Of a DNA stretch of 64,000 bases, positions 3,639 through 57,846 are shown piece after piece (the first letter of the stretch is position 1; every line of letters starts with the position of its first letter). Source of the DNA: Candidatus Poribacteria bacterium. Its GTDB lineage: Bacteria > Poribacteria > WGA-4E > WGA-3G. The notes under the pieces were generated by a model. That model was not told the origin of the DNA. It made no database searches and saw only the letters and a list, made by a program, of their open reading frames with translations. The position numbers were made by a program, and so were the translations under genes. Location: positions 1 through 64,000 of the forward strand of contig JAJDWA010000053.1 in NCBI GenBank assembly GCA_022825825.1. The letters run 5' to 3'.

Positions 3639-4331
3639 TCTCTATCATTTCCTCCCGTGAACTATAACGCGACTTTGGTAAATCCCGTCCGCTTTCTAAT
3701 CCCGATTTATTGCCCCAAGGTAGGCACGTTTTGGAAACACACCTGTCCCTGTGCTGAAGAGGACTAACGGCGCTTTTAGAAAACGCGCCTACCAGGGGTG
3801 TAGACCGCTAAATTGACGACTATGAGTTCCGCTGCGCTCTACCCAACGGACTATACTTAATCAAATTATCAAACTCACGTTAACACGTTAACTATAAACA
3901 CAATTCTGAAAAATTGCAAGGAAATTCGGAGATTTTATTTCGAAATGTGAATCTTTCGCTCAAAATAGGGCGGTAGAATATGTCGTTCTGCTCCGCGGGT
4001 CTTTTGTAGAAACATTTAATCTGAAAAGGGTAACAAAACCGGGGAAAAGCGGTTATTTACCGAAGAAATTTTAACTAATTTACAACTAAAACAACTGATT
4101 GATACAATCTGATTAAAAGAAAATATGAATGTCGCAAATTCTCCAAAAAATGGTAACAAAATACAAAAAAGTAGCGTTAATTTTTTCAATCAAAATAACA
4201 AGTTGTTTGTACTTATTTGAAGTTGTGCAATATGATTAAGTTTTGAACACCGATCCTAATTTTTAGTGTAACCAACAAGAAACCTTCTAATGTTTCCAAA
4301 AGGTAGAAATTACAGAGCCAGGTGATTGATT
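3639..4331. other. Long intergenic stretch with a palindromic repeat element
   Basis: The first part (about 3690-3830) is a reverse-orientation copy of the repeat that also lies at about 57536-57827. It contains the hairpin GGCGCTTTTAGAAAACGCGCC at 3769-3789 and, at 3732/3733, the undisturbed (empty) counterpart of the site occupied by a 115-bp insertion in the other copy. The rest (3830-4331) is AT-rich and has no convincing gene; an open frame of 31 codons at 4125-4220 has no supporting signal. The promoter of the next gene presumably lies here but I could not pick one out with confidence. Confidence 0.6.
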
Positions 4332-16184: not shown

Positions 16185-16231
16185 TGGAAAATGATTTTCA
16201 GTAAAGACTTTTGGCATAGACGTTACATTTA

Positions 16232-16512
16232 TAGTAAAACCTATAATTATTTGGATACTACTGTATCGCAAACTGTCAGTTTGCGCATCCACGGAAACAC
16301 AAACTAAATGAAGATAAAAAAATAGATTTGGTAATTCCGTAACCATGCCCAGTGCGGTTAGGAAACCGCACCTACCGGGCCTAGGAAAATAAATATTACC
16401 GAATTAATAAATTAATCTTCATACAGTTTGTGCTATCGCATAGGCGGTAGGCGAGGTTTCCTAACCTCGCCGGCACAAATGTCCAAATAATTGTAAAATC
16501 TATCATAATCTA
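16232..16512. repeat. Composite intergenic repeat with imperfect terminal inverted repeats
   Basis: The left end (ATAGTAAAACCTATAATTATTTGGA) and the right end (TCCAAATAATTGTAAAATCTAT) are imperfect inverted copies. Inside lie, in order, a hairpin around TCGCAAACTGTCAGTTTGCG, the 115-bp element at 16308-16422, and the hairpin GGCGAGGTTTCCTAACCTCGCC at 16450-16471. It reads as nested insertions of non-autonomous elements between miaB and map. No gene is present. Confidence 0.65.
16308..16422. mobile_element. 115-bp palindromic MITE-like element, copy A
   Basis: Bounded by ATGAAGAT and ATCTTCAT, with the inverted similarity extending about 28 bp inward to GGTAAT / ATTACC. The centre contains a GTGCGGTTAGGAAACCGCAC hairpin. 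A copy of exactly the same length lies at 57629-57743 with most bases identical. The flanks are themselves inverted repeats (CACAAACT at 16298-16305, AGTTTGTG at 16425-16432), so the element sits at the tip of a hairpin. No coding capacity. Confidence 0.85.
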
Positions 16513-57515: not shown

Positions 57516-57846
57516 GCGGTGAGGTAACCTCGCCGCTTATGTGTCAACTTAGCGGCCCACACCCCTGGTAGGCGCGTTTTCTAAACGCGCCGTTGGCTAA
57601 TCTTCAGCACAGAGACAGGCGCGTTTCCATGAAGATTAAGAAAATATTTCGGTAATTTCATAATTATATCCAGTGCGGTTAGGAAACCGCACCTACCGGG
57701 CCTGGGAAAATAAATATTACCAGATTAATAAATTAATCTTCATCAAAACGCGCCTACCTTGGGATCCTAAATCGGACTTAGAAGGTTTCCCTCCAACAAG
57801 ATGATGGCCCCTTAAGTTGACAGTCATGAGGCGAGGTTACCTCGCC
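57516..57846. mobile_element. Composite palindromic element carrying the 115-bp insertion
   Basis: An outer unit bounded by TGTCAACTTA (about 57541) and TTAAGTTGACAGTCATGA (57812-57829), the same ends as at 44292-44451. It contains the hairpin GGCGCGTTTTCTAAACGCGCC (about 57573-57593) and is a near copy, in opposite orientation, of 3690-3826. Between GGCGCGTTTCC and CAAAACGCGCC lies the 115-bp element (57629-57743). Hairpins GCGGTGAGGT/ACCTCGCCGC (57516-57536) and GGCGAGGTTACCTCGCC (57830-57846) adjoin both ends. No gene lies between 57371 and 58039. Confidence 0.8.
57629..57743. mobile_element. 115-bp palindromic MITE-like element, copy B
   Basis: Same length and ends (ATGAAGAT...ATCTTCAT) as 16308-16422, with the same central GTGCGGTTAGGAAACCGCAC hairpin. 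It interrupts a repeat whose uninterrupted form is visible at 3715-3750 on the other strand. GTTTCC|AAAACG there becomes GTTTCC-element-C-AAAACG here, so the insertion is precise and duplicates at most one base. Confidence 0.88.

Follow-up and report, generated by a model that had tools for sequence, protein, structure and literature searches.

A 115-bp palindromic element of Candidatus Poribacteria lies at the centres of REP-like hairpins and shares its ends with an IS630-like insertion sequence

In the window, a 64,000-nucleotide stretch of DNA from Candidatus Poribacteria, a sponge-associated bacterium, a 115-bp palindromic unit interrupts a repeat that is intact elsewhere in the same stretch. 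We asked how this unit came to lie there, what moved it, and what determined the base at which it sits. Two 115-bp units with identical ends and the common centre GTGCGGTTAGGAAACCGCACCTACCGGGCC were present, as originally predicted, at 16308-16422 (copy A) and 57629-57743 (copy B), and were 88% identical to each other by BLAST. The host repeat of copy B was recovered uninterrupted on the minus strand at 3694-3817, with 85.6% identity over 125 bp across the junction. The empty site read GTTTCC/AAAACG and the site of copy B read GTTTCC-element-CAAAACG (the slash marks an insertion point), indicating that a single C was duplicated at copy B. Copy A likewise split a hairpin, CACAAACT-AA/element/AC-AGTTTGTG. 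The features discussed below are as follows.

3694..3817, minus strand: empty copy of the host repeat of copy B, with an unfilled 3-nt loop at 3732-3734 and 85.6% identity through the junction
16298..16307, plus strand: left half of target hairpin A, CACAAACT + AA
16308..16422, strand not assigned: copy A of the putative mini-transposon (MITE); its right end equals the left end of the autonomous insertion sequence (IS), 29/29
16352..16371, minus strand: central GTAG-type hairpin within copy A
16423..16432, plus strand: right half of target hairpin A, AC + AGTTTGTG, with the A duplicated
57571..57591, plus strand: first GTAG hairpin of the host REP pair (BIME), empty, loop TCT
57618..57628, plus strand: left half of target hairpin B, GGCGCGTTT + CC, complementary to 57744-57754 (score 8/8)
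57629..57743, strand not assigned: copy B of the putative MITE, ATGAAGAT...ATCTTCAT; its ends match the autonomous IS at 23-27 of 29 bases
57673..57692, minus strand: central GTAG-type hairpin within copy B, GTGCGGTT-AGGA-AACCGCAC
57744..57754, plus strand: right half of target hairpin B, CA + AAACGCGCC; the first C is the 1-bp duplication

A larger imperfect palindrome, TTATAGTAAAACCTATAATTATTTGGA / TCCAAATAATTGTAAAATCTATCATAA, enclosed copy A and its host hairpins (window 16229-16508). It is probably another MITE, so that three or four mobile layers would be nested there.

In the genome, the pattern ATGAAGAT-N70-100-ATCTTCAT had 7 matches and its reversed control had none, and a 28-base end pattern gave 104 matches versus 1 for the control; counts so far above the controls rule out chance pairing of the ends. 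A BLAST search with the element returned 56 matches in the window's genome, and the same DNA query matched 30 of the 40 genomes searched (the window's genome and relatives). The element was non-coding, carried terminal inverted repeats, and occurred in many copies, mostly of 100-175 bp, as is characteristic of a MITE, and the 115-bp unit is therefore described here as a putative non-autonomous mini-transposon. In an end-pattern scan of named genomes, nearly all matches belonged to Candidatus Poribacteria and a few to Chloroflexi/Anaerolineae MAGs (L092, L095, L137, and L138), suggesting either spread between phyla or misbinned contigs; the L095 element sat in the hairpin GTCACGCT-TG/GT-AGCGTGAC. 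Several MITE copies (L238 12579-13067, L016, and L017) were broken by further hairpin repeats of the GCCAAATGC... and GAATACGCGTTTGGTATTC types, which are other REP-like families. Long elements in L097 and L103 were discarded, their end pairs having proved to be false matches to coding sequence.

The original prediction held that no transposase lies in the window and that the element is mobilised in trans. Neither an IS630-type (DDE_3) nor a Y1 transposase was mapped on the window's contig, and a decayed DDE_3 fragment on another contig of the genome (C65) was unrelated and had no MITE-type ends. Among 80 Poribacteria and Chloroflexi loci, one end pair (L099) enclosed a single transposase-like ORF within 1,240 bp. 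Its product matched Pfam DDE_3 (PF13358; E=1.5e-20, 74 bits, cut-off 28.6) and the NCBIfam IS630 transposase model NF033545 (E=1.9e-52, 178.6 bits, cut-off 100). Homologues of at least 60% identity were present in 10 of 85 genomes of the phylum, and the window's assembly (84% complete) gave no match to this transposase at E<=0.001 and no intact copy. The autonomous IS measured 1,186-1,241 bp; between terminal inverted repeats of the ATGAAGAT type it carried a single ORF, which in intact copies encoded 382-395 aa. Such ends were present on every IS copy with both ends readable; at L291 and L292, no IS ends were found with the pattern used. The MITE and IS ends were identical at 21-29 of their first 29 bases, reaching 29/29 for one end of copy A. 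Mobilisation in trans is thus supported by a same-ended autonomous IS with an IS630-family transposase in relatives and by the lack of a detectable gene of this kind in the window's assembly, and the shared ends and shared sites lead us to infer that a transposase of the L099 type would move the MITE.

An alignment of six transposase homologues showed D191, D273, and E334 to be invariant, which is consistent with the predicted DDE cut-and-paste catalysis. The invariant D273 and E334 are separated by 60 residues, apparently because of an insert around 296-318; the D-E spacing usual in the IS630/Tc1/mariner superfamily is 34-37. The AlphaFold model of the transposase was poor (pLDDT 51), and a PDB sequence search found no transposase.

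We then considered where the copies lie. With flanks counted as a stem at a pairing of 6/8 or better, 91 of the 120 short copies were at the centre of a palindrome, compared with 0.5% of random positions; these copies are not independent, a few REP families supplying many of the hosts. When an offset of one base was allowed, the number rose to 101/120 (null 3.7%). Within 0.86 Mb of the genome, where copies were not selected one by one, 8 of 9 were palindrome-centred. In the aligned flanks, the left side was the reverse complement of the right with an offset of exactly two bases on each side; at this offset (2,2), 71% of positions paired over 141 end pairs, false pairs included; after shuffling, the figure was 26% (bases) or 34% (partners). 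Both stem arms were kept, one on each side of the element. Many exceptions resembled off-by-one sites, decayed arms, or chimeras of two different hairpins, and in L021, L103, L159, L210, and L212 the flanks were halves of different hairpins, as would be expected from recombination between copies.

Autonomous copies occupied similar sites. The 1,240-bp IS of L099/L201 lay in the hairpin CACAAACT-TT/IS/TT-AGTTTGTG, and palindrome-centred copies were also found in L202 (AATGCC-TA/AT-GGCATT), L289 (GTGCGGTT-AG/GA-AACCGCAC), L293 (CACCCC-TA/AC-GGGGTG), and, more weakly, L205. The L290 copy was one base off the centre of its palindrome, and those of L204, L209, L210, and L212 retained just one recognisable half-hairpin. 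The L289 copy (1430-2830) was nested: the IS interrupted a MITE of the same family at that MITE's central hairpin, and the MITE itself lay in the hairpin GGTTTTTC-GT/TA-GAAAAACC.

The form of the filled sites was stem-N1N2/element/N2N3-stem. The inner flanking base was equal on both sides in 70 of the 91 hairpin sites (expected 25%, p=3e-25), and all four bases were used. The duplicated base was that in the middle of the loop, so the anticipated duplication of at most one base was borne out, with 1 bp as the rule. About 20 of the 91 sites lacked this identity, some of them being palindromic (GT/AC, AT/AT); some would fit loops of 2 or 4 nt or later mutation. The loops predicted from filled sites (AAC, GTT, TGT, TCT, AGA, AAA, and CCA) were found on free-standing hairpins with the same stems, and free-standing CACAATCT hairpins had the 3-nt loops AAC or GTT only. 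Hairpins with 4-nt loops (TCCT, AGGA) were at least as common, yet few of them were filled. Of the filled sites sampled from the window's genome, 6 fitted 3-nt loops and none was clearly 4-nt, against 31 (3-nt) and 41 (4-nt) free T-closed hairpins (Fisher p=0.009, with small numbers). The frequent 4-nt loops TCCT and AGGA have the form N1N2N2N3, and might be scars of precise excision of the element from a TCT or AGA loop.

Very probably, then, the MITE is moved in trans, by cut-and-paste, by the IS630-like transposase of the same-ended IS, and both are inserted at the dyad of palindromes, chiefly GTAG REP hairpins with a 3-nt loop. One enzyme would thus insert both its own IS and the MITE at the centre of short palindromes, with the GTAG-tagged hairpin of loop N1N2N3 as its favoured target. 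On each strand, the join to a transposon end would fall two bases 5' of the 3' stem arm. Cuts in a 3-nt loop would then be staggered by one base, and repair would duplicate the middle loop base; a 4-nt loop would give no duplication. The enzyme may read an extruded hairpin or cruciform, which is the simplest explanation of the same geometry on unrelated stem sequences. The broader proposal is evenly balanced in our judgement: that an IS630-type branch has dropped the TA rule and targets by shape, at the tip of an extruded hairpin or cruciform with any stem, each strand being joined two bases before the 3' arm, so that it parasitises the REPs of another mobile system. Since its MITE carries a REP-like hairpin, such a branch would also make new targets for itself.

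Alternatively, the transposase might read the palindrome as plain double-stranded DNA, recognising a symmetric site with T-A at its inner edge (T-NNN-A). T-A closed the loop in 84 of the 91 sites, and dimers commonly bind symmetric sites as duplex. However, the stems of filled hairpins (CACAAACT, GCGCGTTT, GTGCGGTT, CCCCCCTT, GGAATGCT, TTAGTCCC, and GTTATGAT) were otherwise unrelated, with T at the inner edge as their only common feature, and T also closed 31 of 43 loops in free 3-nt-loop hairpins, implying that the loop-closing T may come from the REPs. We consider the duplex reading possible but rather unlikely.

The host hairpins themselves could belong to the moving unit. They bore GTAG at the 5' foot or CTAC at the 3' foot in 64 of 91 cases, compared with 7 in a control region further out, and were often paired head to head. 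This foot, together with a short hairpin and many copies, characterises REPs; judged by foot, stem, loop, and copy number only, the host hairpins fit the GTAG REP superfamily (PMC3733652). They resemble the GTAG REPs and BIMEs associated with TnpA_REP (RAYT) in their GTAG foot, 8-9 bp stems, 3-nt loops, and paired inverted arrangement (PMC3733652, PMC8266576); here such repeats are the target and not the mobile element studied. The GTAG feet, along with four Y1_Tnp matches in the window's genome, identified as Y1_Tnp and not as RAYT specifically, would suit joint movement of element and hairpin, with a Y1 (REP-associated) transposase mobilising them as a single long REP-type unit. This is very improbable, given that the element occurs in many different hairpins, that free copies of such hairpins are common, and that the IS630-type IS has the same ends and sites.

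A further alternative concerns the duplication, which might really be the conventional 2 bp (AT/TA) of known IS630 elements, hidden in the AT at each end of the unit. The element does start and end with AT, and IS630/Tc1/mariner elements duplicate TA. Against this, AT is absent from the junction of the empty copy in the window. Reading the element as GAAGAT...ATCTTC, with AT as the duplicated target, predicts empty sites with NNATNN loops; 0 were found in the DNA examined, compared with 272 NNN loops on the same stems (not de-duplicated), and a hidden AT/TA duplication was ruled out on this absence as extremely improbable. TA/TA, the TA duplication of IS630 and of RUP-type MITEs, was likewise seen at 0 of 91 hairpin sites.

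It is hardly credible that insertion was random and that copies survived only in neutral REP sequences: REPs are intergenic and insertion-tolerant, but survivorship cannot explain why most copies sit exactly on the dyad, to the base, and no spread of insertion points along REPs was seen.

Whether copy B was gained or the empty site lost was examined by deleting the element and one C from the copy B site and using the resulting sequence to query 0.86 Mb of the window's genome. Away from the query site, at least 8 empty host-repeat stretches (88-132 bp, 85-92% identity across the junction) were found, along with further partial ones; the junction was filled in the window copy and at C30:38836. 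In more than 20 hairpins of unrelated sequence, the element occupied an equivalent position. Because empty host repeats outnumber filled ones and so many unrelated hairpins share the element, copy B is an insertion, as had been proposed. The opposite reading, in which the 115 bp is an ancestral piece of the host repeat deleted at 3732, drew on the two-copy comparison in the window and no other support, and is refuted by the host-repeat copies that lack the element with the junction intact and by the many unrelated hairpins it occupies, leaving it practically no probability. The orthologous empty site of copy B was not readable, its flanking genes being on different contigs in relatives. At the copy A locus, the interval bounded by the same genes was only 60-100 bp in ten congeners, and in three others it held unrelated sequence without the element; copy A's whole repeat cluster was therefore most likely gained in the window's lineage, but none of these thirteen gave a precise empty site.

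If this explanation is correct, the element is an unusual case of a transposon target chosen by shape rather than by sequence, and its transposase could be considered as a tool for structure-guided DNA insertion. Few transposon groups have been studied as well as IS630/Tc1/mariner, and a branch that inserts at hairpin centres and duplicates a single base, whichever it is, would offer a natural test of how these enzymes come to choose their targets. It would also account for the Russian-doll palindromes of Poribacteria intergenic regions, where MITEs sit inside REP hairpins and themselves contain REP-like hairpins, which can in turn receive the autonomous IS. We found no literature report of hairpin targeting by IS630-type elements, and no paper combining IS630 and Poribacteria in the literature searched, which mostly leaves out subscription journals.

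Like IS630 of Shigella and ISY100, the autonomous IS consists of a single DDE transposase gene and terminal inverted repeats. Known IS630/Tc1/mariner members insert into and duplicate TA, a target described as near-universal and seen in 34 of 39 ISY100 products in vitro (PMC2170065). In contrast, the Poribacteria element duplicates 1 bp of any sequence at a hairpin centre, without TA, and is on this ground IS630-like by its transposase but not a conventional member by its target. The nearest MITE is RUP of Streptococcus pneumoniae, for which, as for the present element, trans mobilisation by an IS630-family IS has been proposed; the RUP passages of the sources describe a high-copy MITE of about 107 bp, thought to be moved by IS630-Spn1 with similar ends (PMC2229807, PMC3049150). 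According to those passages, RUP uses TA as its insertion site, and they mention no hairpin-centre rule, whereas the Poribacteria MITE sits at hairpin centres. In the "stem-loop replacing" transposition of IS1272 and IS1182, the target is an inverted repeat of variable sequence and structure recognition has been proposed (PMC5678879). IS1272, however, deletes the target stem-loop without duplication; the Poribacteria element keeps and splits the stem, with both arms retained, and duplicates the loop centre. REP palindromes are targeted by members of the IS3, IS110, IS4, IS256, and IS5 families, a list from which IS630 is absent (PMC1525189). The Poribacteria element resembles these REP-targeting ISs (IS1397, ISKpn1, IS621, ISPsy8, ISRm22, and others) in inserting into REP palindromes (PMC1525189), but differs from them in using many unrelated hairpins, in occupying one exact dyad position, and in spreading chiefly as a MITE.
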